Both the position numbers and the translations under genes were made by a program. From Limonium bicolor (lineage: Eukaryota > Streptophyta > Magnoliopsida > Caryophyllales > Plumbaginaceae), in NCBI GenBank assembly GCA_023374045.1, contig CM041779.1, positions 268,532,131 to 268,596,130 on the forward strand: a stretch of 64,000 bases of DNA. Reading direction: 5' to 3'. The notes under the pieces were generated by a model. It was not told the DNA's origin, searched no databases, and worked only from the letters and a program-made list of their open reading frames with translations. This document shows, piece by piece, positions 11,238-62,703 of the stretch (position 1 is its first letter; every line of letters begins with the position of its first letter).

Positions 11238-11272
11238 GAACTTCGAGGACGAAGTTCTTTTAAGGGGTAGAT
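11238..11272 (+). promoter_or_regulatory. Hairpin plus polypurine tract before the LTR (first copy)
   Basis: A perfect 8-bp stem (11238-11245 with 11250-11257, GAACTTCG/CGAAGTTC) with an AGGA loop is directly followed by a TTTTAAGGGG-type tract that primes plus-strand synthesis, then TGAAATACCCC at 11273. The same hairpin-PPT arrangement occurs at 27217-27252 and at 58142-58175 in the AlkB-bearing element. Confidence 0.75.
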
Positions 11273-21253: not shown

Positions 21254-21374
21254 AAACCCAGCTTCTGATGATTAGATCACCCCAATCTTTTGGGGATGAA
21301 ATAGAGGAGTCTGAATCTGAAGATACTTCCCTCATTAAGGCAGACCTTGCTAGTCAGCAAGGCTGCCACCCAAA

Positions 21375-26921: not shown

Positions 26922-27252
26922 ACATGTTGTGTGGTAGGTGTAATAAATGTTATCTTGACCTTGAGTCCAATTGTGGTTGCATCTGAATTTGGTTATGTTA
27001 CCCAGACCTGAGAGTCTAAGGGTGGATATGTGGATACAAATGTGGTTATGTTACCCGGACCATTGAGTTCAAGGTTATTTTTTTTTCAAGGTTATTATGT
27101 AAGGTATGTTATGTTATGGATGTGTTTATGTTTGTTATGTAAAGGTATGTTTTGGTATGGAGGTTTTATCTGGCAAGTAATTCCCGGATTCTATGGAAGG
27201 ATATGAGGGAAACTGTGAACTTCGAGGACGAAGTTCTTTTAAGGGGGTAGAT
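26922..27252 (+). mobile_element. Interior tail of the outer element (second duplicate) with hairpin and polypurine tract
   Basis: Repeats 10964-11272. It ends with the 8-bp hairpin (27217-27224 with 27229-27236), then TTTTAAGGGGGTAGA, directly before the TG of the 3' LTR at 27253. This is the tract that primes plus-strand synthesis. Confidence 0.85.
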
Positions 27253-29797: not shown

Positions 29798-29902
29798 GGA
29801 CCCCCCTAGGGACCACCCCTATGGGGAGGTCCAGTGGAATTCTGCAGGCGAATGTAGTTTCTGCTGTGGACCGCCCCTGGGACCTCCCTAGAGGGGCGGT
29901 CC
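29798..29902 (+). repeat. Hairpin array: two 35-bp palindromes 70 bp apart
   Basis: Units are 29798-29832 (GGACCCCCC...GGGGAGGTCC) and 29868-29902 (GGACCGCCCC...GGGGCGGTCC), starting exactly 70 bp apart. The stems are much more GC-rich than the rest of the LTR and unlike those of the other arrays, but size, spacing and position in the LTR are the same. Confidence 0.88.
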
Positions 29903-31354: not shown

Positions 31355-31421
31355 GCCCGGTAGCATGCGGGCTGCACGATTACCATACCAGCAAAGGTGC
31401 TGAGCCCCTTGGGGGCCACCC
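31355..31421 (+). other. Conserved LTR 3' hairpin block
   Basis: GCCCG/CGGGC stem around a GTAGCATG loop, then the ACCAGCAAAGGTGCTGAG motif and a CCCC...GGGG pair. It lies about 370 bp before the LTR end and just before TTTTCAGGTACAAGGAG (31430-31446), which looks like a splice acceptor. Near-identical copies are at 5861-5928 and 5095-5160. Confidence 0.65.
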
Positions 31422-31792
31422 TTTTTCCTTTTCAGGTACAAGGAGCTGGAGCCGTTCGAGAGTAGGACGGGGTGGTTGTTTGTGCATGGGTAGTTATTTA
31501 ATTACTTATGTATTGTAGGTGTAGTAAGACCGAAACTGTTATCGACATTAGTTTGTAAATACTCGGTACAGTTGGAATGTAAATGTATATTGATTGTTGG
31601 AAATGGAACGGAATGATAATGTGTAAGTGCTCGGGAATCTGGTCCATCAGACCGATACAATGTATAAGTATTAGTCTTTATAGCCACGTGGGTGGTTAAC
31701 GGCGTGTAACACCAATGAATTAAGTGAATGTTGAGTTGTGTTTTTCCGCTGCAAATTGTTGTTAAGTACATTGTTGTAGTAGGGGTGTTACA

Positions 31793-33031
31793 GCCCCAAA
31801 GCCGTACAAACTAAATACAGAATCCAAATGCCAAATCTTAAAGCAGAGGCCAAAACTCCAAACAGAAGCTAAACCTGCAAATCAGACGGGGATAGGGGTG
31901 AGCAAAACCATCGCTCAGGAGGTGAAAAACTTCTTCAACTAAGCACGCTCAAAACATAATCTAGACATACATTTATACTTATATAGAAGTATAGCAAAAT
32001 CAGAAACAGAGGCCTTGGAGAAAGAAGGCAGAAACAGAGGCTTAGCAAAGTCATAAACTTATCCACAAATAGAAGCTTAACTAAAATCAGAAACAGAGGT
32101 CGCAGAAGAAGTCCTTAAAATCGAAAGAGGTCCAAAGCAGAACGAGCCAAGAGATGACAAATCAGTGGGAGCAGCAAAACAAATCAAAAGGCCGAATCTT
32201 TGTAAACTAGAGACTTCTTAGAAGATGGAAAGAATGCAGCAGACCATCTCAAGTCAAATACAGACAGAGCAGACAGAAACAGAGCACTTATAAATCAGAA
32301 ACTTTCAGAGGACACAAGGCACACAATAGTCTGTCAGAAACCAAAACAGGGAGAGCAGATGAAACAGAGTACTTACAAATTAAAGGTTCCTAGAAGACAG
32401 AAAACACACACACAGTCTGTCAAATACGGGAGCTGAAGGAACAGACAAAAGTAGAACACAATACGAACAGAGGTGGGACACTAGCACTGAACACAACACT
32501 AAAAAAGGTCAGAAACCATGGATCTAACAGATCCCTCAACAACACAGAAATGACCCGAAGGCTAAAGGGTTCATCTACCCCACAGAACAGAAATGGGAAT
32601 GACCCAACACTCAGAATGACGTCTACGTAGCATGCTACGAGATAGCTCGACCTAGCCTTCCACGGCTCAGAATGTACAAAAACTAGGTCCCCAAAACTGA
32701 AGTTTAATAAATCAGAACAAAAGGTGTAGAATGCAATCACCAAGGAACAAGACCTTAAACACTACAATAACAGAGTTCATAGTTGAAACAGATGTCTTAA
32801 ACTAAGACCAACGAAATATGCAGGATCAAACTGAAGTAAGAATCTGAAACACACTTTCAGAGCAAATCAGAGTTCAAAGGCTTATCAAGACTTTCAAATC
32901 AAAGTGCACATATACATGTGCTAAAACATATCAAACAAACAGATCATACTCGAAGAGAGGAAACAAACACCGTAAAACCACACTCAAAACGGAGCTCGAA
33001 CAAAGAAGTTATGCAAAAACAAAGGTCGGTC
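31793..33031. other. Unclassified, CAGA-rich sequence, no supported gene
   Basis: Follows the 3' LTR. The + strand is rich in scattered AGAAACAGAG-like words (for example near 32000, 32090, 32275, 32360), giving a weakly repetitive texture. A 107-codon reverse-strand frame (32420-32743) is hydrophobic and matches no family I know. It is probably an old repeat remnant. The last bases, GGTCGGTC, are the left side of a hairpin array continued at 37434 beyond solo LTR D. Confidence 0.4.
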
Positions 33032-36000
33032 TGTAACACCCCAACTCATAAAACCTGACTTATCTCACAAACCTCCAATTACTTATATTAACATTGCAGC
33101 GGAAATTTTCTACAAAGATGGTGTTACAGTCGTTAGTCACCCACGTGACTAACTAGGCATGCTAAATCCTCTAAGATCTAGCTACGGTCTGATGGACCCG
33201 AAATTACCGAACATTAGTACTTACAAGTCTTAACCAAATACATACACAATTCCAAATACATTTCCTCCTATACAACTAACTAATATAGACCACCGTACGA
33301 GTGCACATGCACAACTCGTAGGTCAAATTTAAACCCACATATGTCTACCCTTCCTACTCTCATGCCGGGCCATCTGTTGCTTCTTACCTGCAAAATAATA
33401 TGGATGCCCCTAGGGGCTCAGCACCTTTGCTGGTATGATTAACGTGTAGCCCCCACGCTAACGGGACTACGCACGACTACTTTGTCGTATACATGAGGTT
33501 GATTATTAATACAACATTAATAAGAAGTACAATAAACACCACACGACATATGAACAATTCATAGTTCAACCACAACGAACGACTTAAAAGAGTTCCTTAA
33601 GTAAGTGAGTTAGCTTTTAACTCCTTAAGTCAAGATTTCTCTTATTCTCAAATCCATTCTTATCTCATCTCAAGTCTTATCTTAAGTCTCATTGTGCCAA
33701 CCATTCTTTAATTAGAATTGGTTGTTTCTTAACTCAATGTTTATCTGTGTGGGTCAAAGGTAACCCTAGCCAATGAGCTATCAACTCCATTGGTTTAAAT
33801 AAACATTATTTCTTAAATTTGGGATTTAGGAGATCCCACCGCACCATCTTAATCTTGCCTCCCACCTTGAACCATAATCCAAGGTGGCCGAGTCTGTTTG
33901 TCGACTCTAGGCGACAAGTCCGAAGACAAGCCTCGATGGAGGACGGACCTGATAGGGATACCGACCTCCTAACTCAACATGCATGACCGGAGTCAGTCCC
34001 GGATTCTTCACTCCCCAAGTTCCAGTTAGTAGAAGTCTCAACGACGGTGTCTGTTAGTTAACCTCTTTCGGTTACTAATAAACCAATATTAGGGAGTGTT
34101 CCTTATTCTCACACAATTCCTTACTAAACATTGTTAGTAAGTTCTCAAAGTAAGTTGTGTTAGTTTCATACAACACACAACAATACACTAAACCGGTTGC
34201 ATGCTTTATCTTGTTTAGTCGGGACACATAAACAAATAGCACACAAACCGAGGTACACCTCGTTAGCAAGAAGGCTACAAGAAAACCATACCGTTCACCG
34301 TTGGTCGTTTGGTTGCCTAATCTCCTCCGGAGTCCAAATACTCAAACCCTAAAACATTCATCCAATCGGGTGGTTAATTCTCTTTTAATTAACCTAACTC
34401 ATATCATCACTAATGGTTTCCGATTAGTAATGTCTAAATCATTGTAATTTAAACTTAACCACTTAAATCATTTTACTTCTCTTAATTTATCAAGTCCTTA
34501 TATGCTTATCTTTCTAATCATCATTACCCTCCTAATAATGGACTACTAATGCCACTCTTTCTCCTCTCTTTTTTTAAGGTCCGACCGACCCACTCTAGGG
34601 TAGGTCGCCTGGGTGGGTCGGATGCAGAAGCATCCAGTTTGACAGTTTTTGCTCGATCGACCCAGATAGGGCCGGTCCCCTGGGTCGGTCCACTGTAGAA
34701 CCCTTTCCCAAAGTGCTTATTTTACTCCAATCTCTTCCACAAGTGTCCTAGTATGTTCCTATATCATTTTGGCACATTAATACCCTCTTAAATCATCCAC
34801 CAAACTCATTATTCAACCCACCTCCAAATTCCTTAATCACTTACTCAAATTCTTACTAAGTTCCTAACACTTAAAACTTAGTTCCTTATACTTCCAACAT
34901 GTAAACTTTGCCTAAAACCTCAACTAACCAAAGTGTTTCTTCTCAACCATTTTGACTACTCCTCAAGCATTATCAATCATCCTCATCTCCTTAACTCAAA
35001 CTTCTCATAGTTCTCAAGGTCTCGTTGCATCTCCATGCACAACTTCCTCTCTTTTACATTTATTACTCATCATTCCTAAACTTGTATATACTTATGCATT
35101 TCTAGCCATCCTCTTAACACCTTAACATTGTTCCTCATCCAACTACACAATCACTTAGCCTTACACACACCTTTACTCCTTCAACTTGACCATTCTAAAT
35201 TCCTCTTAAACATTTCCATCTCCTTTACTCAATTTACTCACCATTAACATTGTTATACACTCTTATCCATTTCTAGTCATTCCCTTGACAAGTTACTATA
35301 TTCTCTTGAAGTTTTCACCTCCATCACCCAATTCCACTCATTACCATCCAAGTTATCCTTATTATCTCACTACTAGACAATCTCTTAACATCTCATAACA
35401 TTCTTCCTCAAACTTCACATTAACCTTAGAAATCCTTCTCTTGTAGTTTAAAGGTGATTATCACTCCCAGACTTCTAACTCCTCCAAGACAACTCTAGGT
35501 CATTCTAATCCTCAAGAGCACCTTTGTTAACTCATTTCCACTCAAATTTCATTTGATGATTCCTAGTAAGTCCTTGATCATTTTAATCCATAAAATCCAC
35601 TAAAAACACTTTGTTTTCTACTCAAATTTCGCCATAGCCTCTCTAGTATATTGCCATGCCCAAATGCATAGTTTTTTCTCCTCTAATCAACATACACACA
35701 TCAGTCCTTTTCTCATGATATTTCTCACCCAATTCAAACCATTCATAACAAACACAATATGGTGAAATAATCTTAAATTGCATAGCACTAAGGCTCTTAA
35801 ATGATATGACTCTTAGGCCCTTAAATGACATGGCTCTTAGGCCCTTAAATGACATAACTAAACACTGAATTTCCCACATAAATAGCTTTCAACCAGCATT
35901 TACACAACACTCCATATCATAGCAATATAAATGTTCTTATAATCCATCTTATGCTTATCTTACTAACTCATTTCCCATTGGCTCCTTAGTCACAAGTTCA

Positions 36001-37428
36001 TAAGCTTGTTCATATTCTTTTCCTAGGTTATATAAACCATTATATAATGTAATCTCTAAGCTACATTTGGTATCTAACTAAACCCCATTCCCTAAGACAT
36101 TAACCACCTTAAGGTATTAGTAAGTAATTTACCTGTTTTTCAAGCCTTTTTCTTTCTCTCTTCCTTTGGCTTTCTTGACTGATTTTCAGAAAGGACTTTT
36201 AGTTCCCTTGCTAAGCTTCTAATCAACATTCAAATAATGTAATGAGTGTTAAGGAATATACCTAGACCCATGGAATTTACTCTTAGGTTAAAAAGAGTTT
36301 TTAAGCATTAAAATGGATTATTACCTTTGGAGTCTTAAGATAGACTTTGGTAAAGAATCAAAGGAGGACCTCCACTAGTCTTTTGAAGATTGAATCAAGG
36401 CTATTACAAAGAGTAAAACAAGGCACTTCAAATGGCAATTTTCGGCCAAGTACAAAAATGGAAGAAAAGGATGATTTTTGAAGCTTTTCTTACCTTAAGC
36501 CAAAGAGAGTATATACTAGCTCTTGAAACTGAATTTTTCTCTTCAAATGGAGCTCCTTTAATGGAGTCCAACTTCTGGTTTAGAATTATGAAAATAGAGG
36601 ATGGAAGGTCTTGGTCTAACTAAGACAAATGTGTGCTTAGTTTTTGATTTGGAGCTTGGAGTTGCATTTGGCAAGCAAAACAAGTTGGAGAAGGTGAAGG
36701 CTGGAGCTTCCACGGTTCTGGAGGAGAGAGAATGAAGAAAATGCTGTGGACAAGGAAGAAGAAGTGAGGAGAGAGGAAAGCAAATGGGATATTTCCTTTA
36801 CTTAAGCAAAAAGTTAGTGAATTGTCTTTTCTTTTCTTTACCTCTTCTTTTCTAAGTTATGAATGAGTCATGTGGTGACTCACCCCTTAAGAAACCATGC
36901 CCCCTTGATATTTATGGCTAGTTTGACCATTGACCACTTAAAGAAGTCATTTGACTTATTTTGGGCACTATTTGGGTACTATTCATAAATTATGGCACAA
37001 ATTGTGAAATTTTTTGGGTTTTCATTGATTTGAGGATTCCTAATGTTGATACTAATAGTACCCATGTTTATTAAGGTATAAACTTGGTCATTTAGCCACT
37101 CAAAACTCATTTCCAAGACAATTTTCAAAAAAAACATGCTTTAAGAATCCTTAAAACACAATTTGTGTTTAAACTTGTTTTTGAGCTTGTTTTTTCTTGG
37201 TAATTGATTTAACATGTTCATTAGCATGTTAATAAGGTCTAGGAATGACCTTTGGGTCCTAATCAAGGTTACACCAAGTCTAGAGCAGTATTTGCTTAAA
37301 TTGACTTTATGGTGTTTTCTGTTGTTTTCTTTGGTTTAAATTGTCTACCATTGTTTCTAAGGCATGTTTTAGCCTTATTACATCATAAATTGATGTTTAA
37401 TTAACATACTTAGGTTTGGGGTATTTCA
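33032..37428 (-). mobile_element. Solo LTR D (reverse strand)
   Basis: Reads TGTAACACCCC at the left and GGGGTATTTCA at the right (4397 bp). Both sides carry CGGTC (33027-33031 and 37429-37433). The reverse complement of the conserved hairpin block lies at 33405-33470, a hairpin array at 34585-34688, and a donor-like CTTAAGGTAAG on the reverse strand near 36490. No interior remains. The frames of 60-78 codons within it are chance. Confidence 0.93.
34585..34688 (-). repeat. Hairpin array in solo LTR D
   Basis: Two palindromes with CCGACCCA...TGGGTCGG arms: 34585-34621 and 34657-34688 (one mismatch). The right arms end 67 bp apart. Compared with the arrays in LTRs A, C and the 3' LTR, the unit length is similar and the stem sequence differs. 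Confidence 0.85.
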
Positions 37429-46877: not shown

Positions 46878-49800
46878 ATCCTGATATTACATCCCCGGAT
46901 TTCAACAGTTATTTGTTAAGGTATCATTATCCAAAATCTTACTCGTAGTACATATTAATACTCGGTTTTAAACAAAAGCGTCGGTTCTTATAAAAAACGT
47001 CTTAGTTAGCGTTTTCAAACGTTAGAATTTATACTACTCTAAACCATAATATTTATAAGTGTAACGCTTATACTTATGTTCATATACTTCCGTATATAAT
47101 TCAACTGATTCGGTTGCATGCATAGGTATATGTTTATATCCTATAGTTGCATGTATTCATGCAACGTTAGCTTATATTACATATCATCTTACTATTCTTT
47201 ATTAGACTTTGTGTTATATAACTGAAATATCCCTAAATTAATTTAAATTAATTTAGGGTATTTCTTTTATTAAATACCCTTGATAATATTATTGAACAAT
47301 AAACTATTATATGGTGTTATAATAATAAACGTTAAATTATTATGGGTTAAACATTAAATTATTATATGGAGTTATGGAATATTATTTGGAGGATTTCTTA
47401 TGTTTAATACAATTTAAATTAATTAATTATATGGTATTATGAATTTAATAGAAATATTTACAAGTCAATAAATCTTGGGAAAATTCCTAGACACTCCAAT
47501 TATATTATAAAGATGTTAGAAACATTTGGAACATTGATTTGAAACACAAAAGTCAATATAAATCCTAGAGACCCTAAAGCTTATTAAGCCTTGCTAGGGT
47601 TGACTTTTTTTTAGAATGGTCAAACTAGCCCATGAAATCTATACCAATAAATAGGTATGGAAAACCACGAAGATCGATAAAAAGAACGTCAAAAACGGAC
47701 CATCCTAGCCAAAGTTATGCTGGTTTGAAGTTTAGAGCCAAAATTTCATAAAGTGCCACGTGTCAGCCCCTCGTGCGTCCCAACACTTAGCTGATTTTAC
47801 CTCCTGTTTTTCTCCAGCAAACAACCGATCTTGACCTAACTTGTGACGGCTATATCTTCTTCATCTTTCAATATTTTTCAAAGCCGTCTTCTTTATTCTC
47901 TTCTCCTTTGAATCATCTTCACAACCGTAACTCATACAAACCTAACTCCTTCTACATCAACGGGAAAATCGTTCTCAAGTTGGCACTTTTCACAGTCGTA
48001 ACCCAGATTTCCAGTTCCCTTCGAATTCAGGTAAATTCGTCTAGCCATAAATCCTTCGTTTCTCAACCAAATTTTGATTTCTTTAGCTCGTTGTGTAGAT
48101 CTCTAATCCGTCTACAACTTTCATGTTTATTCCCAAGCCTGATTCGTAACCGCTTGGAAGTTATAGTCGCCCAAAGTCTCTGATTTGTCAGCACATAAAA
48201 TCACAGAAAAACGACAGGTAAACTCGTAACTTCGGGTCAATTTTCTTTCTGTACAATGCGAGTTAGGATTAGTTCTAGTTATCAATGTGTAGATCTATGT
48301 TTCTTCTTTCTAATGAGCCCAAAACATGGCCTAACTCGATCTAGAACGTAATCTACAGACCTCCAAAGTTCGCTACTCGAACAGGTTGAAGTCGGAACCT
48401 TTCCAGAAAAACGATTTCGAATCGCTTCGATTCGGGCAATTCCGGTGAGTTTCCGATCGAATTGCTCCGATAATGTTGTTGGTAGTGTTGTTTTCGACCT
48501 AACCCATGTTTTAATTGAATCAATTACGTACCATATGAGGGAATTTGTCGGATTTGTGTTCGAATCGAACTCAGAAACTATATAAACCCTAACCTTCGAA
48601 TTGAATTCGAAACTCGATGAATATTGCATGATAATGGGGAAATCGGTACCATTAGAACCGGAATTCGATTTCGAATCCATAGAAACAAAAATCATTGAAT
48701 TTCGTTCTGTAGATCGAGAGATATAGGTGAATTAGTACTCGAGTCCGATTTGTGTTCTCTGAAGAACTCGCGCAATATAGGCCGTCCGATCTCAGTTAAT
48801 AAAGATGGACGGCCACGATTAAAACATACGATTTTAAAGTATAAGTTTTTTATATGTTTCCAGGAATCAACCCTAACTTGTTTAATTAATTTAAGTATCT
48901 TCCCGAATGTATTTTGACTTGAAATTTTAACCACAGATTCCTTATAAAGTCTAGTTTATTTTGATATAAATTAATATGGGTTTTGAGTTTTTAAACGTAA
49001 GTTATAATTTTTGCAAGTTTCGGTTATTGTGGAATTATCTGGATAAATTTAAAGGATATCTTTGTGAAATAAAATTTTTATATATGTCTAAGATGTTATA
49101 GTTACTATTATTAAATTTGGGAATTTTTGGACAAAGGTAAATGGGTTTAAAAATTGTATTTGTGAAATTTTCATGAGATTTTCTTATAATATATGGTTTT
49201 TAATTTAACAAAATTAGGGTATAGTTTGTTAATAAACTTTTAGGGTTTGGAAAATATGAAAAGACTAAATTAATATTTAGTAGCAGTATATTTATAAATA
49301 TTTTGGTTATTCATTTTTAAGTAAAGTAAAAACTATATATATATATATATATGTTTATAATATAGAAAAAGGAATAGAAGCTTATATTAAATTAAGAAAA
49401 CTAATTAATCTACATTTCTGATTACTATATAATATGGAAGTTGTATATATACCTATGGAGGTTAAGGAAATATTTTATTTTATAAACTTTATGTTATAGG
49501 TGGATTTGGTTAAAGGTTAATAATGTAATTAAATACAATAAAACTTCTTAAGGAATGTTTTGGGGAAAACCTAATGTATATATATACTCATGTGAGAGGA
49601 ATTAAATAGAAGCTTGTGTTAAATCAAGGATTTAAATTAATTTACATTTATTCTATTATACAGTTGGGAGTTAATATACTTAACGTTAACTTGGAAAATA
49701 CTTTATTTTATAACCTATTTATATAATACGTTAATAAGTGTAAGGTTAATCGAGGTAATTAAATAAAACTACTTAAATAATGTTTTAATTAAATCCTAGT

Positions 49801-50190
49801 ATAACTATACATAATAGACATAATTAGAGGAAATAAAATACCTTATCCTATAGGTAATACCTAAGCAAATAAAATGCCTCTTGAAGACTAGATGTGTGTG
49901 AGTTGTAAAGGTGATTTTAGTTTAATAATTTCTTAAAGAATGTTCTGGATAAATCTTATATTATATATGGATTTACATATATATTAATATATGAGAATAG
50001 CAAGGGAAATAACATTTCTTGTGGAAGAATAATTAGTAGAGTGTATATATGTACCTACTCAACTTTAGGTCTCTAATAAATGTTGTAATAATTAGCCAAC
50101 GTTAATCTAAAGGTTTAATTAAATTAACCCCATGTCTAAGAGTAAGTAATTTAAAATTTCGTTAGTTGTATCTGTTAGACAAGAAAATTC

Positions 50191-50252
50191 GATGGCGTAG
50201 TGGGTTAAGTTTAATCTGGAACTGAGTCGAGGTTGCACGTTCGAAACCTCGC
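50191..50252 (+). other. tRNA-like / SINE-head-like segment inside the LTR
   Basis: GATGGCGTAGTGGGTTAAG resembles a tRNA-type A box (50198-50209). GTTCGAAAC at 50239-50247 fits the B-box consensus (GTTCRANNC), about 40 bases downstream. The 3' LTR has the same at 61160-61221. A CGAGGTT/AACCTCG pair surrounds the B box. No complete cloverleaf can be drawn, so it is not a tRNA gene; a captured SINE head is the likeliest origin (inference). Confidence 0.5.
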
Positions 50253-51006
50253 ATAATCCTTTTAGGGAACTTAATTAAAACAACGAAAACGTAGCGCGGG
50301 CTTGGGCTAACCTACTGGGCCCAAGCCTGTGAACTCCGAAAGCCCACTTTAACAATTCAAAAGAGAGTTTGGGCCACTCTCAGGAAGTAAATTCTAAATA
50401 ATTCCAAACTTAAACGAGATGGGCCTAACAAGGAGTGAGTTAACAAGTCAAGCCCAAACCTCGTAAGAGAATAATGGTCAACCTGAAACTAGTAATCAGT
50501 AATGAAGAAGACTGTTAAGTGTATAAGTCTCTTAACTAATCGACACTTGGATACCTTAATCATAGGTTATTAGTGGGAGTTGCACTTGCACATTTGGTCA
50601 ATTTGGATTATGCTTCTACACGTACCAGGTACGATCTCTCGTACTCCGATATTTCTGATGTTTGACCTATGAGTCGTTTCGAGAAACGCTAACTGACTTT
50701 AAGAGGAATTTAAAAAAAAGAAATGGTTGTGTGATTAACTCAGCTTGTCTGACTAAACTGAGCCTTGTATGTGAAACTCACTTGGGTATTGGTTCCTTCC
50801 CTTCGGTTGTTCCACTGGACATTGATTACTTGGGGTTTACGCTTCTGCACTCTGTAGGACTGAGTGTTTTGGTATTGCTCTGGGTAATGGTGATCTGGTG
50901 GGAATTTGGAAAAAGTCATCTTTGGTATTCTTTCTTTGACTCTGGATATTTGTTTCATCCATGAGTGGGGTCGTTGCTGTGACGTGCGCGCGTCTTCATC
51001 GGTAAA

Positions 51007-51088
51007 CAGTAAAGGCTGTATATCCCTTGTCCTGAGAGGACGTAGTTAACAGTAAGGGGCTGTATATCCCCTGTCCTTAATGGACGTT
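51007..51088 (+). repeat. Two-unit tandem repeat with double hairpins (43-bp period)
   Basis: Units start CAGTAAAGG (51007) and CAGTAAGGGG (51050). Each holds an AAGG/CCTT- or GGGG/CCCC-type stem around CTGTATAT and a GTCC/GGAC stem around a 5-base loop (CCTGAGAGGAC, CCTTAATGGAC). Sequence has changed on both sides of the stems while pairing is kept. The 3' LTR copy is near 61976-62057. Confidence 0.75.
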
Positions 51089-51734
51089 CTTGGCGTGGGG
51101 GCCATCTCTCCAGTTGGTTTCATTCCATTCTTGAGTTGCTGGTTTTGGTTTTCTCTCATTCATTCCTAGTCCTCGTGACCACATGGGTCTTTCTACTCCA
51201 ACTTGGAAATGGATCTAACATAAGTAATGATTGTTCACTAATTCTTGGTGTGGTGTTATTTACTAACTTTACTCTTCTGTTATTTGTCTCCTTTGAAATG
51301 TTATGTTTGACTTGGTGTTTTAAAAGGGTGTTTTGTTTCGCTATTTTGTTTAAGTGTTGTTTTCAAGTTATTGTTTATTCTCAAGTTATATTAAAGTTTT
51401 GTTTTAGAGAATAGTACCAGTTCCATTCCAGGGAACTGACTCACCCTCCCGGGGTGGGCTGCTTGGTTTAATCTTGCAGGTACAAATTATTATACAGGTA
51501 ACCACGAAGAGTGTGAGTAACTGGGATGGTATTAGGATTTTTGGAGAGGTTGTTGTAATTTATTTATGTTTATTTCATGTTGAGTTTTCTCGAGTTCAGA
51601 CCGTAGCTTTTGTAAGTTATAAGTTGTAATTGGTGAGGGTTGGTGCCGGGTGTTTGGAACCCGATGGTCTGTACGCCCTTCGTATTTTTATTTCCGCCTT
51701 TTTTAAATACACTAAATAGGGGTGTTACAGAAAG

Positions 51735-51746
51735 TGGTATCAGAGC
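51735..51746 (+). promoter_or_regulatory. Primer-binding site, initiator Met-tRNA
   Basis: TGGTATCAGAGC, 5 bases after the LTR end, is the perfect plant initiator-Met PBS used by many Ty3/Gypsy and Copia elements. From here to the Gag start at 52013 lies an untranslated leader of about 270 bases. Confidence 0.95.
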
Positions 51747-52661
51747 GTAGTTACGCTTTGAACCCGAGAAAACAAGCCGAGTGAAATACTTAGATTATAG
51801 GTGCACTTAAAACTGGGGAACCGGGGTAGAATTGGGAAGTGGGGATTCCAGAAAGGCGCGTGACCTTTACCCCATACTTACGTTATTATTTACATTTCAC
51901 TGCACGTACCTACGAACCGTCCTTAGGACGTTATAAAAATACCTACTTTACTACATGGACATTTAGACTCAACAATACGCCTCTGAGTAACGAATCCGTC
52001 AATATCAGCTAAATGTCGGGAAGAAGAGGAAGAGGAGCAGGTTCCTCAGGAGCAGGATCTTCAGGAGGCCTTGGACCCGACGCTGTCACTCCAGAGGTCA
52101 TAGCTTAGATAGTGACGGCTGCACTAGCTCAGCAGCAGGCCCAGATCCCACAGCCGCCACCACCACCACCTAATGGACCCCGAGAGTTCAACTGGCTGAA
52201 GGCAGTCAATGACCTTCGCCCTCCAACTTATGAAGGCCAGCCGAACCGAAGACCTTAGAGAAGTACATCGACGAGATGCAGAAGGCCTTCACCTCTATGC
52301 ACGTTCCAGCTAATCGCCAGGTGGACATAGCGGCCTACTTCCTTCAGGGACCCGCGCACCGATGGTGGCAGACTGCTAGAGCCGAGCTGACGGCCCTGGC
52401 GAATTTCGACTTTCAGGCATTTCTAGTGGCCTTGAGAGCTAAATTCTACCCATCTTACCTCCAGAAGAGGATGAGGAGCGAGTTCGAGCAGCTGAAGCAA
52501 GGAAATCCTCTGTTGCTGACTACTATAACAAGTTCGTGGAATTACTTGCTGTGATTGGAGAGGGAGCTTACGCTCCGAGGTACCTGGTGGATAAATTCCA
52601 TTCTGGCTTGGACTTCAGGATCATGAACATGATCGGTTCCACCAGAGGGATGACCTTACAG

Positions 52662-52737
52662 GTAAGGAACATGATTTAGAGAATTTGGTATGCTAAGATT
52701 CTCCATTAACATGTATTGTAACGACAGGAACTAGCTG
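52662..52737 (+). other. Candidate intron 1 in gag (76 bp, phase 0)
   Basis: CAG/GTAAGG at the 5' side and AACGACAG/GAAC at the 3' side. Unspliced reading meets an in-frame TAG within seven codons. Removing it keeps the Gag frame open and continues with plausible Gag residues (ELAEDAND). Both splice signals are good for a plant intron. Confidence 0.8.
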
Positions 52738-52947
52738 AGGACGCAAACGATTGCGAGACCACTATTGCCTATCAAAATTTTGTGCTAGGCAAGAGGAGGA
52801 ATGACAATGGAGGAAGAGATGGGAGAGGACCCCCTCAGACTCACGAAAGGAGGGGCAAATTTTTCAAGGGGGGGAATGAGAAGGCCATCGTCCCTTCTAA
52901 CGCTAATGCTAAACCTCTTCGCCACGAACCACCTAAGGGTGAGAAAG

Positions 52948-53005
52948 GTTGGAATCTACAATATGTTACATTTTATTTTCCTATCTCGTTACTAACTCTG
53001 ACCAG
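52948..53005 (+). other. Candidate intron 2 in gag (58 bp, phase 1)
   Basis: AAAG/GTTGGA to TCTGACCAG/GAAC, with a branch-point-like ACTAAC 13-18 bases before the acceptor. At 58 bp it is not a multiple of three, so retaining it would lose the zinc-knuckle frame; removing it joins the frames. The donor is weak and the length is near the plant minimum, so this one is less certain than introns 1 and 5. Confidence 0.65.
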
Positions 53006-53373
53006 GAACAGGAAATCAATTTGTGAGAAGGTACTTCTGTAAGTGGTGTAAGAAGGACCACCCGGGCAAGGATTGTAAGGGAAACCTGGTGAATTGCAAC
53101 TACTGCGGCAAGATGGGGCACAGATCGTTTGAATGCATCATGAACCCGGACTCCAGGAGATACAAGCCACGCACCGGGTCAGCGGCTGAAGCCCCACCTA
53201 CTAACACTAATGGAGGAGGAGTAGAGGTAGTACGGGAGGTGCTGGACCATCTACCAACCGCCCTGCCCAGACACAGAGGCCGGGACAGAACTACCCTCAG
53301 AGGCCAGGCAAAGCACCGGTCCTCAACCTGGTGGACGGGGTGGAAGCAGCGAGGAATGACCTGAGTTCATCTG

Positions 53374-53555
53374 GTGAGGAATACCTTCCTATCGAAGGAG
53401 CTTAGACTTTTATTCCATTCTTGTTTCTATAAACTCATGTTTCTTCGTATTGTAAAGGGATGAACTACAAATCCCTCCTTCCTTTATATTTTGTTCGAAA
53501 CCAAGTTGTGAACCTTATCCTAAACTGCTTAATAAGAATCATTGTTTTCATTCAG
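53374..53555 (+). other. Candidate intron 3 between gag and the AlkB exon (182 bp, phase 1)
   Basis: Donor TCTG/GTGAGG (53374). The acceptor is the pyrimidine-rich TTTTCATTCAG/C at 53555. The AlkB frame is open back to exactly this acceptor. Other donors before 53460 cannot be excluded. Unspliced RNA meets a stop at 53402. Confidence 0.65.
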
Positions 53556-54271
53556 CTTTTGATATTTGCTTTCCCATATTACCTATCTCCACACCCAACA
53601 TCCCCTTTGAAGCCAAACCACACCCACCAGAGAAATGTGAGGTCTTGAGACCCGGGATGATCTTACTACGAGAGTACCTGACCCCAGCAGTCCAGTATGC
53701 ATTGATCCTCAAGATCAGGGAGTTAGGTGTGAAGGAAGGGAATTTTTACACTCCTACCTTCAAGAATGGTTCAAACATGAAGTTGAAGCTCATGTGCTTA
53801 GGCAAGAAGTGGAACCACACCACCAAAAGCTATGAAGAGGCGGAGGTGCCACCGATCCCGGAGGAGTTGCAGACCATCATTGGAGCTGCAGTGAAGATCG
53901 CACAAGAATTGGAGGATGAGCCCGTCCCAGACATAACCTCAGACGTCTGCATCATCAACTTTTATGGGAAAGAAGGTAAGCTAGGGTTGCATCAAGATAA
54001 GGATGAATCCCTAGAATCCATCACCAGAGGAGTTCCAGTGGTTTCCATATCACTTGGAGACGACGCGGAGTTCCTATTCGGTGACCAGAAGAGGATGGAC
54101 CTCGCTACCAAGATCATCCTAAAGTCAGGTGATGTACTGATCTTTGGAGGGGCAGCTAGACTCATCTACCATGGAGTGAAGAGAATCAAACCCAACACAG
54201 CCCCCACATCCATTATTAACCAGACTCACCTGAAACCTGGCAGATTGAACCTGACCTTTAGACAGATCTAG
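53556..54271 (+). CDS. AlkB-family 2-oxoglutarate/Fe(II) dioxygenase exon, ALKBH1-like
   Basis: AlkB enzymes use Fe(II), O2 and 2-oxoglutarate to strip methyl or other alkyl groups from DNA or RNA bases. The frame runs uninterrupted for about 238 codons from the acceptor at 53555 to a TAG at 54269-54271. All catalytic landmarks are present: an N-x-Y motif and HQD iron ligands in NFYGKEGKLGLHQDKDES (codons 53960-54013), the distal iron His in LIYHGVKRI, and the R-x5-R that binds 2-oxoglutarate in GRLNLTFRQI at the C-terminus. The N-terminal part (LRPGMILLREYL, FYTPTF, MCLGKKWN) resembles plant ALKBH1-type proteins, so a host gene is the likely source. It lies between Gag and protease, probably as a Gag-AlkB terminal exon; a separate start (ATG at 53657) is possible. 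Confidence 0.92.
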
Positions 54272-54361
54272 CTATGTATTTTACAATTCAGCATTGTAAT
54301 CATTAAACTACTCAAGCTTGCAATAAGAATGGAAATACTAAGAATTCATTTCTTCATGTAG
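54272..54361 (+). other. Candidate intron 4, AlkB exon to pol (donor uncertain)
   Basis: The acceptor TTCTTCATGTAG/G at 54361 is good and followed by an open phase-1 exon. Possible donors are TAT/GTATTT (54276) and ATT/GTAATC (54296), both weak and after the AlkB stop. Because the stop precedes any donor, including the AlkB exon would always end translation before pol. Confidence 0.5.
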
Positions 54362-55400
54362 GCGCTGGAAATTTTGAGATCAAGCTGAATGTGTTGAACC
54401 AGGCTCAAGCAAAGAGCAATGGAATGGTCATCACAGGTATAAACGTTAACCCTGAGTAATTACCTTGGAACGTTTACCCAAAATCTTAAAAACCTATTCT
54501 ACAATTTCAGGAACGTTCCTAGTTAATGGAGTGGAGGCCACAGTCCTGTTTGATTCTGGTGCCTCCCACTCCTTCATATCACAAGCGTTTCATGATAAGA
54601 TCGATGCTTCGACCGAGGATATCCACGACTGCTCAGTCTTGCTGCCATCCAAAGAACGGATCAAGTGTAGTAAGCAGTGCAAGAATTTGAGCATACACAT
54701 CAAGGGAGCGGACTTCCTTCTGGATGCCATAGTCTTCCCTGGCATGGGATTTGACATTATTGTGGGCATGGACACGCTACAGCGGTATCGAGGCAGACTA
54801 CATTGTGCAGAGCACCGTCTCCTCCTGAAGTCAGCTACAGGGACCACCGTGTCGTACCGAATGCAGCCTAAGCAGCCGACTGTGAAGGTTGTATCGGCTC
54901 TATCCCTGATGAAGGAGGTATCCAAGGGCGCGACTGCTTACTACTGTTATGCCCAGGATCTGAGGACGGATCCGAAGTTCCAGAGCAATGTTCCCATTGT
55001 GTCGGAGTACCCCGACGTTTTTCCAGAGGAGCTACCTGGACTACCACCGTTGAGAGAGGTCGAATTCAATATTGACCTCATACCTGGTACGGGACCGATT
55101 GCTAAGACTCCCTACCGGATGGGCCCTGCAGAGATGGTTGAGTTGAAGAAACAGCTGCAGGAGCTACTAGATAAAGGTTTCATCAGACCCAGTGTCTCAC
55201 CTTGGGGTGCACCAGTGCTTTTCGTCAAGAAGAAGGACGGAAGCATGAGACTCTGCATTGACTATAGAGAGTTGAACAATGTCACGATCAAGAACAAGTA
55301 CCCACTGCCCAGGATCGAGGACTTGTTCGACCAGCTGAGGGGAGCCAAGGTGTTCTCCAAGATCGACCTGCGTTCCGGATATCATCAGATAGGTAGCTGA
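54362..55400 (+). pseudogene. pol, first part: aspartic protease and RT N-terminus (intron at 54437-54510)
   Basis: The short exon 54362-54436 (75 bp, phase 1 at both ends) encodes a linker and is joined across a 74-bp intron (ACAG/GTATAAAC to CAATTTCAG/GAAC) to the protease. The catalytic DSGA has its Asp at 54552-54554. The protease separates Gag and Pol proteins. RT follows with [40 protein letters not shown] and [14 protein letters not shown] frameshift near 55395 (local duplication of CTGAG) brings a stop at 55398. Joined to Gag exon 3 by skipping AlkB, the phase is preserved. Confidence 0.9.
54437..54510 (+). other. Candidate intron 5 just before the protease active site (74 bp, phase 1)
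   Basis: Donor ACAG/GTATAA, acceptor CTACAATTTCAG/G. Unspliced reading from the linker exon meets a stop at about 54457. Removing it restores a linker-to-protease frame with the usual spacing to the DSGA site. Confidence 0.8.
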
Positions 55401-56600
55401 GCTGAGCCAGACATAGAAAAGACAGCCTTCCGGACCAGATACGGCCACTATGAGTTCACAGTAATGCCGTTTGGACTGACTAATGCACCGGCGAGATTTA
55501 TGGACTTGATGCAGAGAGTCTTCCAAGCACAGTTGGATAAGTCGGTGGTCGTATTCATAGACGACATTCTGATCTTCTCCAAGAGCAAAGAAGAACATGA
55601 GCGGCATTTGAGGACAGTTTTGGAGACTCTGAGGGGAGAAGCAGCTGTACGCCAAGTTCAGCAAGTGTGAATTTTGGCTGGACAAGGTGTCATTCCTTGG
55701 ACACGTGATCTCGGCTGAGGGAGTTTCTGTAGACCCAGCTAAGATCGAGGCAGTGAAGAGCTGGCATAGGCCTCGTACTGTGACGGAGATACGGAGTTTC
55801 CTTGGGTTGGCTGGCTACTACAGACGTTTTGTGAAGGATTTCTCCAGGCTAGCCAAGCCCTTGACTTCACTGATGAAGAAGGATAGCCCGTTCGTATGGA
55901 CAGAGGCTTGTGAGGTCTCCTTTCAGGCGCTGAAGGACGCCCTGACTACAGCTCCAGTGTTGACAATTCCCGAGGGGAACGAGGGGTACGAAGTATATTG
56001 TGATGCTTCAGGCAGAGGGATTGGTGGAGTACTAATGCAGCATGGCCGAGTGGTAGCTTATGCTTCTAGACAGCTGAAGAAGCACGAAGAAAATTACCCT
56101 ACACACGACCTTGAGCTCCTCGCCATAGTCTTCGCCTTGAAGATCTGGCGACATTACTTGTATGGAGCCACAGTCCGGATTATGACAGACCATAAAAGTC
56201 TGAAGTACATCTGGACCCAGAAGGAGCTGAACCTGAGACAGCGACGATGGGTCGAGCTACTGGCTGATTATGACATCAATCTCCAGTACACCGAGGGTAA
56301 AGGGAATGTCGTGGCAGACGCTTTGAGCAGGAGAGCACACTCACTCCTAGCCTTGATAGAGACGACCACGATATCTGAGGAGATATACGCAGCCCAGGAC
56401 AGAGATGTATACCTACAGGGCATCAGGCGGAAATTAGCAGACGGTTTGACTGATGGTCTGAAGTATGAGTATGAGCTAGACAGTGAGGGACACCTTCGAG
56501 TCAGAGGCAGACTCTGCGTTCCTCAGGATGCGACAGAACTCCAGACCAGGATTCTTTCTGAGGCTCATTCCTCTACGCTATCAGTACACCCTGGAGCCAC
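55401..56600 (+). pseudogene. pol, middle part: reverse transcriptase catalytic core and RNase H
   Basis: Continues RT with the [11 protein letters not shown] motif and the active-site FIDD (Asp codons 55560-55565). A frameshift near 55632 separates it from [11 protein letters not shown] and [16 protein letters not shown]. RNase H follows with its acidic residues in [11 protein letters not shown] (Asp at 56002), [14 protein letters not shown] and VADALSRR, ending near 56335. RT copies the RNA and RNase H degrades the template strand. A frameshift near 56600 precedes the integrase core. All lesions look like single-base or very short indels. Confidence 0.92.
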
Positions 56601-56603
56601 AAG

Positions 56604-57813
56604 ATGTACAAGGACTTGAAACAATTATTCTGGTGGAGCGGGATGAAGAGGGATGTAGCGGATTTCGTCTCTCGGTGCCTCACCTGTCAGAAGGTGAAGT
56701 TTGAGCATCGTCGACCAGGAGGCCAGATTCAGTCACTACCAGTACCGTGCTGGAAATTTGATGATATCAGCATGGACTTTGTGGTCGGTCTTCCTCCAGC
56801 TAGAGGGGGACTGAATTCCATTTGGGTGATAGTCGATAGGTTGACCAAGACAGCTAGGTTTATACCTATCAAGGAAACATGGAAGGTGCCCAAGCTAGCT
56901 GAGGTTTTCACCACAGAGCACATCCGGTACCATGGAGTACCGAAGACGATCGTCTCCGATCGTGACACTCGTTTCCTCAGCAGATTTTGGCGTCAGGTGC
57001 AGGAGGCGTTTGGGACTCAGCTACGCCTCAGCACAGCTTTTCACCCACAGACTGATGGGCAGACTGAGAGGACGATTCAGACATTGGAGGATATGTTGCG
57101 AGCAGTCGCTCTAGACTATCAGGGGAGTTGGGTAGAGCGTCTACACCTGGTAGAGTTCTCCTATAATAACTCTTACCATTCATCTATCGGCATGGCACCT
57201 TTCCAGGCTCTATATGGCAGGCCGTGCCGGACTCCCTTGTCATGGAGTGATCCTTCTGAGGCAGTCCTAATTGGGCCCGAATATATTCAGACACTGCAGG
57301 ATGACGTCAGAGTTATTCAGCAGCACATGAGGGCAGCGCAGTCCAGACAGAAATCCTATGGGGATCAGCGCACCAGAGAGCTTGAGTTTAAGGTTGATGA
57401 CATGGTCTTCTTACGAGTGTCCCCGATGAGAGGCATCTTCAGATTTGGGATGAAGGGGAAACTAAGCCCTAAGTATGTCGGCCCGTACAGGATTACGGAG
57501 CGAGTGGGCCCAGCTGCATACAGATTAGATTTACCAGCAGAGTTGGGGAAGGTACACGATGTTTTCCATGTATCTCAGCTGAAGAAGTATATGCCTGACC
57601 CTTCTCACGTACTGCAGCCGAGAGAGATTAGAGATAGAGCCTACACTGAGATATGAAGAGACTCCTATTCGGATCTTGGACACGAAGGTCCGCGAAACGA
57701 GAGGCAGATCAGTTAAGCTAGTGAAGGTTCTTTGGGAACACCATGGGGTCGAGGAAGCTACTTGGGAGACTGAGGACTCCATGAGAATAAAGTACCCCCA
57801 TCTTTTTACATGA
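56604..57813 (+). pseudogene. pol, last part: integrase with GPY/F motif and C-terminal chromodomain
   Basis: Integrase inserts the DNA copy. The zinc-binding segment ends in CLTCQKVK (near 56680). The core triad is Asp 56775-56777, Asp 56958-56960 and Glu 57066-57068, the D-x60-D-x35-E pattern. The C-terminal KYVGPYRITERVG is the GPY/F module. After a frameshift near 57645 the frame continues (TKVRETRGR, VKVLWEHHG, EEATWETEDSM) to a TGA at 57811-57813. This tail is a chromodomain of the Tekay type, thought to steer insertion to histone-marked heterochromatin. That agrees with its landing inside other LTRs. Confidence 0.92.
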
Positions 57814-58141
57814 TAGTCCCCTATGTTGTTAGTCTATATCAGTAGAGGTACGAGGGCGTACCTTAGCTTCTTTTAGGGGGAACTGGAGCATAATCCTCCT
57901 TCGTTACCTCATCCAGATTATGCCCGGTTGTTTTACTAATAGGATGAAGGAGAAGTGTATGTATGTATTTGAGTTACTCGTATGTGATTTATGATTTCTA
58001 TTTATGAAATATTTTGGTACTTTCCGGTTCAGTATGATTCTGAGTACCTTGTGTGAAATTGGAATAGGAATGGTTGGAAATTAAAGGTTTGGTATGGAAG
58101 ATACAATTGGGAATGCCTATTGGAACTGTTAGTAGATTTTA
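57814..58141 (+). other. 3' untranslated stretch between pol and the polypurine tract
   Basis: About 330 bases without an ORF of note. A near-palindromic TTAGGGGGAACTGG region (57871) and T-rich runs are seen, but nothing I can name. Confidence 0.6.
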
Positions 58142-58175
58142 AACTTCGGGTCGAAGTTCTTTTAAGGGGATCTAC
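58142..58175 (+). promoter_or_regulatory. Hairpin plus polypurine tract of the AlkB-bearing element
   Basis: A 7-bp perfect stem, AACTTCG (58142-58148) with CGAAGTT (58152-58158), loop GGT, then CTTTTAAGGGGATCTAC running to the LTR. The outer element has the same arrangement with a different loop (AGGA). Confidence 0.85.
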
Positions 58176-61100
58176 TGAAATATCCCTAAATTAATTTAAT
58201 TAATTTAGGGTATTTCTTTTATTAAATACCCTTGATAATATTATTGAACAATAAATTATTATATGGTGTTATAATAATAAACGTTAAATTATTATGGGTT
58301 AAACATTAAATTATTATATGGAGTTATGGAATATTATTTGGAGGATTTCTTATGTTTAAATACAATTTAAATTAATTAATTATATGGTATTATGAATTTA
58401 ATAGAAATATTTACAAGTCAATAAATCTTGGGAAAATTCCTAGACACTCCAATTATATTATAAAGATGTTAGAAACATTTGGAACATTGATTTGAAACAC
58501 AAAAGTCAATATAAAATCCTAGAGACCCTAAAGCTTATTAAGCCTTGCTAGGGTGACTTTTTTTTTAGAATAGTCAAACTAGCCCATAGAAATCTATACC
58601 AATAAATAGGTTATGGAAAACCACGAAGATCGATAAAAAGAACGTCAAAAACGGACCATCCTAGCCAAAGTTATGCTGGTTTGAAGTTTAGAGCCAAAAT
58701 TTCATAAAGTGCCACGTGTCAGCCCTCGTGCGTCCCAACACTTAGCTGATTTTACCTCCTTGTTTTTCTCCAGCAAACAACCGATCTTGACCTAACTTGT
58801 GACGGCTATATCTTCTTCATCTTTCAATATTTTTCAAAGCCGTCTTCTTTATTCTCTTCTCTTTGAATCATCTTCACAACCGTAACTCATACAAACCCTA
58901 ACTCCTTCTACATCAACGGGAAAATCGTTCTCAAGTTGGCACTTTTCACAGTCGTAACCCAGATTTCCAGTTCCCTTCGAATTCAGGTAAATTCGTCTAG
59001 CCATAAATCCTTCGTTTCTCAACCAAATTTTGATTTCTTTAGCTCGTTGTGTAGATCTCTAATCCGTCTACAACTTTCATGTTTATTCCCAAGCCTGATT
59101 CATAACCGCTTGGAAGTTATAGTCGCCCAAAGTCTCTGATTTGTCAGCACATAAAATCACAGAAAAACGACAGGTAAACTCGTAACTTTCGGGGTCAATT
59201 TTCTTTCTGTAATGCGAGTTAGGATTAGTTCTAGTTATCAATGTGTAGATCTATGTTTCTTCTTTCTAATGAGCCCAAAAACATGGCCTAACTCGATCTA
59301 GAACGTAATCTACAGACCTCCAAAGTTCGCTACTCGAACAGGTTGAAGTCGGAACCTTTCCAGAAAAAACGATTTCGAATCGCTTCGATTCGGGCAATTC
59401 CGGTGAGTTTCCGATCGAATTGCTCCGATAATGTTGTTGGTAGTGTTTTTTCGACCTAACCCATGTTTTAATTGAATCAATTACGTACCATATTGAGGGA
59501 ATTTGTCGGATTTGTGTTCGAATCGAACTCAGAAACTAATATAAACCCTAACCTTCGAATTGAATTCGAAACTCGATGAATATTGCATGATAATTGGGGA
59601 AATCGGTACCATTAGAACCGGAATTCGATTTCGAATCCATAGAAACAAAAATCGTTGAATTTCGTTCTGTAGATCGAGAGATATAGGTGAATTAGTACTC
59701 GAGTCCGATTTGTGTTCTCTGAAGAACTCGCGCAATATAGGCCGTCCGATCTCAGTTAATAAAGATGGACGGCCACGATTAAAACATACGATTTTAAAGT
59801 ATAAGTTTTTTATATTGTTTCCAGGAATCAACCCTAACTTGTTTAATTAATTTAAGTATCTTCCCGAATGTATTTTGACTTGAAATTTTAACCACAGATT
59901 CCTTATAAAGTCTAGTTTATTTTGATATAAATTAATATGGGTTTTGAGTTTTTAAACGTAAGTTATAATTTTTGCAAGTTTCGGTTATTGTGGAATTATC
60001 TGGATAAATTTAAAGGATATCTTTGTGAAATAAAAATTTTATAATATGTCTAAGATGTTATAGTTACTATATATTAAATTTGGGAATTTTTGGACAAAGG
60101 TAAATGGGTTTAAAAATTGTATTTGTGAAATTTTCATGAGATTTTCTTATAATATATGGTTTTTAATTTAACAAAAATTAGGGTATAGTTTGTTAATAAA
60201 CTTTTAGGGTTTGGAAAATATGAAAAGACTAAATTAATATTTAGTAGCAGTATATTTATAAATATTTTGGTTATTCATTTTTAAGTAAAGTAAAAAAAAT
60301 ATATATATATATATATATGTTTATAATATAGAAAAGGAATAGAAGCTTATATTAAATTAAGAAAACTAATTAATCTACATTTCTGATTACTATATAATAT
60401 GGAAGTTGTATATATACCTATGGAGGTTAAGGGAAATATTTTATTTTATAAACTTTATGTTATAGGTGGATTTGGTTAAAGGTTAATAATGTAATTAAAT
60501 ACAATAAAACTTCTTAAGGAATGTTTTGGGGAAAACCTAATGTATATATATACTCATGTGAGAGGAATTAAATAGAAGCTTGTGTTAAATCAAGGATTTA
60601 AATTAATTTACATTTATTCTATTATACAGTTGGGAGTTAATATACTTAACGTTAACTTGGAAAATACTTTATTTTATAACCTATTTATATAATACGTTAA
60701 TAAGTGTAAGGTTAATCGAGGTAATTAAATAAAACTACTTAAATAATGTTTTAATTAAATCCTAGTATAACTATACATATAATAGACATAATTAGAGGAA
60801 ATAAAATACCTTATCCTATAGGTAATACCTAAGCAAATAAAATGCCTCTTGAAGACTAGATGTGTGTGAGTTGTAAAGGTGATTTAGTTTAATAATTTCT
60901 TAAAGAATGTTCTGGATAAATCTTAATATTTATGGATTTACATATATATTAATATATTGAGAATAGCAGAGGGAAATAACATTTCTTGTGGGAAGAATAA
61001 TTAGTAGAGTGTATATATGTACCTACTCAACTTTAGGTCTCTAATAAAATGTTGTAATAATTAGCCAACGTTAATCTAAAGGTTTAATTAAATTAACCCC

Positions 61101-62698
61101 ATGTCTAAGAGTAAGTAATTTAAAATTTCGTTAGTTGTATCTGTTAGACAAGAAAATTCGATGGCGTAGTGGGTTAAGTTTAATCTGGAACTGAGTCGAG
61201 GTTGCACGTTCGAAACCTCGCATAATCCTTTTAGGGAACTTAATTAAAACAACGAAAACGTAGCGCGGGCTTGGGCTAACCTACTGGGCCCAAGCCTGTG
61301 AACTCCGAAAGCCCACTTTAACAATTCAAAGAGAGTTTGGGCCACTCTCAGGAATAAATTCTAAATCATTCCAAACTAAACGAGATGGGCCTAACAAAGG
61401 ATTTAGTTAACAAGTCAAGCCCAAACCTCTGTAAGAGAATAATGGTCAACCTGAAACTAGTAATCAGTAAGTGAAGAAGACTGTTAAGTTTATAAGTCTC
61501 TTAACTAATCGACACTTGGAATACCTTAATCATAGGTTATTAGTGGGAGTTGCACTTGCACATTTGGTCAAGTTTGGATTATTGCTTCTACACGTACCAG
61601 GTACGATCTCGTACTCCGATATTTCTGATGTTTGACCTAGTCGTTTTCGAGAAACGCTAACTGACTTTAAGAGGAATTTAAAAAAAAAAGAAATGGTTGT
61701 GTGATTAACTCAGCTTGTCTGACTAACTGAGCCTTATATGTGAAACTCACTTGGGTATTGGTTCCTTCCCTTCGGTTGTTCCACTGGACATTGATTACTT
61801 GGGGTTTACGCTTCTGCACTCTGTAGGACTGAGTGTTTTGGTATTGCTCTGGGTAATTGGTGATCTGGTGGGAATTTGGAAAAAGTCATCTTTGGTATTC
61901 TTTCTTTGACTCTGGATATTTGTTTCATCCATGAGTGGGGTCGTTGCTGTGACGTGCGCGCGTCTTCATCGGTAAACAGTAAAGGGCTGTATATCCCTTG
62001 TCCTGAGAGGACGTAGTTAACAGTAAGGGGCTGTATATCCCCTGTCCTTAATGGACGTTCTTGGCGGTGGGGGCCATCTCTCCCAGTTGGTTTCATTCCA
62101 TTCTTGAGTTGCTGGTTTTGGTTTTCTCTCATTCATTCCTAGTCCTCGTACCACATGGGTCTTTCTACTCCAAACTTGGAAATGGATCTAACATAAGTAA
62201 TGGTTGTTCACTAATTCTTGGTGTGGTGTTATTTACTAACTTTACTCTTCTGTTATTTGTCTCCTTTGAAATGTTATGTTTGACTTGGTGTTTTAAAAGG
62301 TGTTTTGTTTCGCTATTTTGTTTAAGTGCTGTTTTCAAGTTATTGTTTATTCTCAAGTTATATTAAAGTTTTGTTTTAGAGAATAGTACCAGTTCCATTC
62401 CAGGGAACTGACTCACCCCTCCCGGGGTGGGCTGCTTGGTTTAATCTTGCAGGTACAAATTATTATACAGGTAACCACGAAGAGTGTGAGTAACTGGGAT
62501 GGTATTAGGATTTTTGGAGAGGTTGTTGTAATTTATTTATGTTTATTTCATGTTGAGTTTTCTCGAGTTCAGACCGTAGCTTTTGTAAGTTATAAGTTGT
62601 AATTGGTGAGGGTTGGTGCCGGGTGTTTGGAACCCGATGGTCTGTACGCCCTTCGTATTTTTATTTCCGCTTTAAATACGCTAAATAGGGGTGTTACA
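58176..62698 (+). repeat. 3' LTR of the AlkB-bearing element
   Basis: 4523 bp with the same ends as the 5' LTR. It shows the same internal landmarks: (AT)n run at 60299-60317, tRNA-like segment at 61160-61221, two-unit hairpin repeat near 61976-62057 and TCTTGCAGGTAC near 62445. It is followed by ATAAC (62699-62703). Confidence 0.95.
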
Positions 62699-62703
62699 AT
62701 AAC

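Follow-up and report, generated by a model that had tools for sequence, protein, structure and literature searches.

The window examined here is a 64,000-bp stretch of the Limonium bicolor genome, in which an LTR retrotransposon of 15.5 kb spans positions 47223-62698. The element starts with a 5′ LTR of 4507 bp (47223-51729) and ends with a 3′ LTR of 4523 bp (58176-62698), both on the forward strand and both with TG..CA ends. The LTR pair showed 98.2% identity including gaps over 4551 aligned columns, and the 5-bp target-site duplication ATAAC was found in identical copies on the left (47218-47222) and on the right (62699-62703). The matching LTRs and the perfect duplication had been described in an earlier reading of the letters alone (the sequence-only reading), and both descriptions held. 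A primer binding site (TGGTATCAGAGC, 51735-51746, forward strand), which we take to be of the tRNA-Met type, was located 5 bp past the end of the 5′ LTR. A 60-bp near-palindrome with 87% self-complementarity was also observed where the 5′ LTR begins (47214-47273).

The coding parts of the element, which read on the forward strand, were scanned against Pfam as separate pieces. The gag capsid piece (52234-52551) matched PF03732 with E=2.4e-9. The CCHC piece at 53002-53361 matched zf-CCHC with E=0.0019 and 18.6 bits, below the Pfam cut-off of 20.8 bits; the gag exon with the zinc knuckles was placed at 53006-53373 and has a frame slip near 53.2 kb. Protease and the start of reverse transcriptase (RT) were found at 54511-55397 (RVP_2, E=1.7e-27; RVT_1, E=1.2e-8), the end of RT and RNase H at 55633-56616 (PF17917, E=1.1e-34; PF17919, E=2e-32), and integrase at 56562-57653 (SH3_Tf2-1, E=1.1e-25; Integrase_H2C2, E=2.2e-11; rve, E=2.5e-5, below its cut-off). 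The LTRs, the target duplication, gag and the order of protease, RT, RNase H and integrase are those of a gypsy element. After the integrase, a chromodomain (57652-57810) was counted as present, though its PF00385 match (E=6.3e-5, 23.3 bits) is under the Pfam cut-off of 25.1 bits. Two close integrase relatives have a chromodomain match at the same place, likewise under the cut-off. Since the match is common to some integrase relatives, we called the element a chromovirus, in agreement with the earlier description of the carrier; within the chromoviruses, it presumably resembles Tekay. The relatives of the proteins encoded by the element point to a plant host.

Over 4483 aligned sites, 24 substitutions separate the two LTRs (K2P 0.0054); with rates of 1.3e-8 and 6.5e-9 substitutions per site per year, the insertion would be 0.2-0.4 million years old. 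Its sequence marks the element as a young Ty3/gypsy LTR retrotransposon of the chromovirus type. Gap events between the LTRs numbered 53 (44 of a single base, 37 in homopolymers). Indels are thus about twice as frequent as substitutions; most of them change one base of a homopolymer, which points to an unpolished assembly. In the one copy seen, the gag and pol frames are broken at several places. The indel excess between the LTRs suggests sequencing error, so these frame breaks may not be real; the pattern resembles the errors of long-read assembly more than it resembles decay.

Elsewhere in the window, remains of an L1-type LINE with broken frames were observed at 19267-25478 (CCHC_4 knuckle; endonuclease, E=2.5e-12; RT, E=2.3e-9 and 1.4e-16), together with weak zf-RVT and RNase H matches. 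Long mutual repeats with at most 97% identity, some of them inverted, occupy 1-6294, 10835-12045, 26917-31793 and 35753-37428. In the window, Rfam gave no match at the gathering score and ARAGORN gave no tRNA.

The AlkB domain within the element

An AlkB domain lies after the CCHC piece, whose zf-CCHC match is under the cut-off, and before the protease, within the matched LTRs; this is the position between zinc knuckles and protease that had been proposed for it. The domain matched PF13532 with E=1.6e-43. The ALKBH1-type catalytic residues were all present, namely N168-x-Y170, H179-x-D181, the distal H239 and R263-x5-R269, which is the complete AlkB signature noticed in the sequence-only reading. 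That reading had also placed an open frame at 53556-54271. An open frame is indeed present, but at 53456-54268, followed by TAG at 54269-54271, whereas 53556-54271 (forward strand) gives the bounds of a putative exon. Base 53556 directly follows CAG, and the AlkB codons begin at 53558 with an FDIC motif that is common to host proteins; a reading frame started at 53556 contains 19 stops up to 54271. The AlkB frame contains no ATG from 53456 until M68, at the start of the domain. Its GC3 was 0.58, compared with 0.56-0.67 for four gag/pol pieces.

The AlkB is apparently an intact-looking captured plant ALKBH1-type 2-oxoglutarate/Fe(II) dioxygenase, for which a demethylase role is predicted. The unbroken frame itself is uninformative, because about one break per 0.7 kb would be expected from our estimate of the break density of the gag/pol frames. 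Inside the AlkB frame, a strong GT-AG pair of 153 bp (51 codons) was observed at 53976-54128 (rank 5 of 3617). Its excision would keep the frame and remove the HxD motif, and it may be a chance pair.

Putative introns and the AlkB exon

Four gaps with intron-like ends were found in the gag/protease region, all on the forward strand. Putative intron 1 (52662-52727, 66 bp, phase 0) has the donor ranked first of 279 GT and the acceptor ranked 35 of 559 AG, and contains an in-frame stop. Putative intron 2 (52939-53005, 67 bp, phase 1; donor rank 8 of 279, acceptor rank 19 of 559) contains TACTAAC at 52990-52996; no gag-frame stop lies inside it, and its retention would shift the frame to a stop at 53040-53042. 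From gag, putative intron 3a leads to AlkB (53374-53555, 182 bp, phase 1; donor rank 3 of 279, acceptor rank 6 of 559; in-frame stop). Putative intron 3b uses the same donor and passes AlkB toward the protease (53374-54361, 988 bp, phase 1; acceptor rank 10 of 559). It would be followed by a short exon (54362-54436), open in phase 1, and then by putative intron 4 (54437-54510, 74 bp, phase 1; donor rank 6 of 279, acceptor rank 3 of 559; in-frame stop). An acceptor at 53457 was rejected for AlkB as out of frame. A donor-like site just past the AlkB stop forms the pair 54276-54361 (rank 10 of 3617), and use of this donor would turn AlkB into a true cassette exon.

The AT content was 66-68% in the short gaps and 72% in the stretch after AlkB, and 40-57% in the exon pieces. 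When all 3617 GT-AG pairs with a length of 60-200 bp were ranked, the four gaps took places 3, 12, 4 and 1, with scores of 9.7, 5.5, 9.5 and 10.7; the best pair in the pol part of the window scored 5.1. An intronless control was provided by a related element, L006. An alignment query of the integrase against genome contigs gave 19 loci, and frames were read for two of them, L006 and L007; the same query against viral contigs gave one fragment. L006, from a record titled Mycobacterium, is a plant-type element with a single frame of 1360 aa that opens within gag and continues through integrase. Chance GT-AG pairs in L006 scored up to 9.9, and the pair inside the AlkB coding region scored 9.3; splice scores are therefore no proof of introns, and we rejected them as the sole proof. 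The integrases of L005, L006, L007 and L008, in records titled Acidobacteriota, Mycobacterium and Labilibacter, were 53-60% identical to the plant-type element; these loci are probably plant DNA inside bacterial assemblies.

The capsid and knuckle pieces of the window aligned to L006 above shuffles, the knuckle piece barely so (54, shuffle maximum 51). In L006, the knuckle match ends at residue 215 and the protease-piece match starts at residue 248, while the same interval in the window is about 1.37 kb long. The window AlkB gave no match to L006 above shuffles, and neither did the short exon ahead of the protease or the pieces E1b, E2, E3C and E5; the coding nature of these four pieces accordingly rests on open frame and context. 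Stops in gaps 1, 3 and 4 and the frame shift caused by gap 2 would make a full Gag impossible from unspliced RNA. Phase 1 is shared by the 53374 donor and by both acceptors, the one before 53556 and the one before 54362, so that either product, Gag-AlkB-stop or Gag-protease, would stay in frame. Owing to the frame slip near 53.2 kb in this copy, the in-frame join depends on the frame read immediately ahead of 53373. We consider the four putative introns in gag/protease likely; the AlkB, which lacks a start codon of its own, has the look of an alternative exon in an intron-containing gag/protease gene.

Ancestry of the AlkB and known AlkB-bearing elements

A protein search with the AlkB gave 1785 matches, of which the best 120 were taken. 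Among these 120, four unnamed proteins (P0001, P0002, P0003 and P0006, ranks 1, 2, 3 and 6) showed 55-62% identity to the window AlkB; the remaining matches were at most 54% identical, and named plant proteins at most 52%. The closest class was ALKBH1, with the other ALKBH classes farther away, in support of the ALKBH1 type and plant ALKBH1 ancestry proposed earlier. The search and the tree with ALKBH1 relatives that the sequence-only reading had suggested placed the AlkB and the four proteins in a separate clade: in a tree of 54 rows, of which 49 were hand-picked from two lists of 120 matches and in which a few unnamed proteins were assumed to be host genes, the five split off with a support of 100/99 and a stem of 0.96. 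D203, K212, R213 and M214 are common to this five-member clade, and none of them is found in more than 2% of the remaining rows of a 50-row alignment. A profile search with the five AlkBs gave no further clear member among the best 120 of 4391 matches. P0242 of Artemisia was considered as a member; it is internally duplicated and lacks the clade motif, and it was left out of the tree. An AlkB alignment query against viral contigs gave three remote AlkBs with 31-32% identity. If P0001, P0002, P0003 and P0006 lie in retrotransposons, the capture would be old; if they lie outside retrotransposons, an unsampled ALKBH1 branch would be the source of the capture.

The sequence-only reading knew of no LTR-retrotransposon plan that includes an AlkB. 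This is contradicted by the Gypsy_Pa_2799 family of Phalaenopsis, an Ogre/Tat element encoding an ALKBH5-type m6A demethylase (Alvarado-Marchena et al. 2022, PMC9289625). In the screen of 121 angiosperm genomes described there, two Phalaenopsis species were the only ones whose LTR-element consensuses contained 2-ODD domains (PMC9289625). Both the orchid and the window elements are Ty3/gypsy LTR elements that carry a plant AlkB-type 2-oxoglutarate dioxygenase with all cofactor residues kept. The orchid AlkB is of the ALKBH5 type, near ALKBH9B/10B, and forms the C-terminal end of ORF2, a separate frame of 565 aa, with gag-pol as a single ORF, in a multicopy element of 25.5 kb with dual RNase H, as given in that report (PMC9289625). 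In contrast, the AlkB of the window element, a 15.5-kb chromodomain element of which one copy was seen, is of the ALKBH1 type and apparently forms an alternative exon after the zinc knuckles and before the protease; the ALKBH5-type AlkB, the C-terminal position in ORF2 and the lack of a chromodomain that mark the orchid family were not found in it. Among the papers listed from an open-licence library without preprints, the orchid element was the only AlkB-bearing LTR element. Because the AlkB class and the element lineage differ from the orchid case, the window element looks like a second, separate AlkB capture by another kind of LTR element; what is new relative to the orchid precedent is the AlkB class, the element lineage and the gene plan.

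The gene plan also has partial precedents. Plant LTR elements are described as generally intronless, with Ogre and EVADE as named exceptions (PMC12786077, PMC6317226), and where they have extra ORFs, these are reported to lie mostly downstream of pol, ahead of the 3′ LTR (PMC7264820). Ogre-like elements have a gag-pol intron that is spliced in a subset of transcripts; splicing is likewise predicted for the window element, which unlike them is a chromodomain element and has four putative gag/protease introns, one with a competing AlkB exon. Such a multi-intron plan would be uncommon for a plant retrotransposon. Rice ALKBH1 (OsALKBH1, PDB 5xoi and 5xeg) is a host gene with no Gag fusion, and the element AlkB differs from it in its separate clade with D203 and K212-R213-M214. 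In plant RNA viruses, the AlkB domain lies within the replicase. Like those viruses, the element would be a mobile genetic element with its own AlkB, thought to target its own RNA; the families listed as having AlkB domains are Alphaflexi-, Betaflexi- and Closteroviridae (PMC9289625).

A possible role of the AlkB in the element

The arrangement suggests the following model. One donor (53374) would be spliced to two alternative acceptors. With the near acceptor, the exon from 53556 would give a fusion of Gag, zinc knuckles and AlkB that ends at TAG; with the far acceptor, the exon from 54362 would be joined, AlkB would be skipped and Gag-Pol would be made. Unspliced, intron-retaining RNA would serve as the genomic RNA. 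Gag would carry the AlkB fusion into virus-like particles, where the zinc knuckles would hold it on RNA and AlkB would strip methyl groups from packaged RNA or nascent cDNA. Candidate substrates are m6A, m1A/m3C damage or 6mA in single strands, and their demethylation would prevent host methylation or alkylation from repressing the RNA or halting reverse transcription. Related activities have been described: the orchid element AlkB is reported to take m6A off RNA in vitro (PMC9289625), rice ALKBH1 to have 6mA activity on single strands and R-loops (PMC10469495), and, according to a review, host ALKBH9B to release ONSEN RNA from stress granules (PMC12786077).

In support of the model, we counted the LTR and duplication setting, the domain, its fold and catalytic residues, the lack of an early ATG, the splice signals and phases, the stops or frame shift in the gaps, GC3, the young LTRs, the orchid precedent with its in vitro activity and the 6mA activity of rice ALKBH1. 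The whole of it, a young chromovirus with a captured ALKBH1, alternative splicing and a packaged Gag-AlkB demethylating RNA or cDNA, in which splicing, packaging and activity are predicted, appears to us about equally apt to be right or wrong. We hold more tentatively, at somewhat short of an even chance, that a chromodomain element with several gag introns lets two acceptors compete for a single donor, in the style of retroviruses, to make either Gag-Pol or Gag-ALKBH1 and so brings into its particles a demethylase that would clean packaged RNA or nascent cDNA.

The AlkB may instead have no role, if an ALKBH1 transcript was picked up by this copy or a small family through template switching and stays intact only through the youth of the insertion. 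With only 24 substitutions between the LTRs, intactness alone indeed says little. If a known host gene had been copied recently, however, a closer match would be expected, unless the host ALKBH1 is unsampled: among the matches listed, the AlkB is at most 54% identical to plant host ALKBH1, like a long-separate lineage, with the catalytic residues kept, and its bounds agree with the phases in which gag and protease would be spliced. We consider such a passenger less likely than the packaged Gag-AlkB model. A chance event, in which a host ALKBH1 gene or retrocopy entered by nested insertion or a wrong assembly join, would fit the single copy in the window and an assembly that looks error-prone. 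Against this, the frame begins and ends at splice-like bounds, the GC3 of AlkB resembles that of the element, and reading 51690-54600 by eye, we noticed neither a poly-A nor a target duplication that a nested insert would leave; this explanation is very improbable.

A functional enzyme could also act in trans on host RNAs or on chromatin, for example on 6mA at R-loops, and thereby loosen silencing, instead of acting on packaged nucleic acid. Rice ALKBH1 is reported to bind chromatin and counter PRC2 (PMC10469495), and the authors of the orchid study suggest that cellular RNA could be targeted (PMC9289625), but the proposed fusion to Gag zinc knuckles points to the element's own RNA, and we regard action in trans as rather improbable. 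Under the packaged Gag-AlkB model, the exon arrangement would be a concrete and testable route by which an LTR element brings an enzyme to its own genome. If the model is true, the element and the orchid ALKBH5-type case would together represent convergent capture of demethylases by LTR retrotransposons. A lone AlkB-bearing LTR family could be an accident, whereas a second capture, in which another gypsy lineage took up another AlkB class, would point to methylation of transposon RNA or DNA as a barrier whose removal is selected for.
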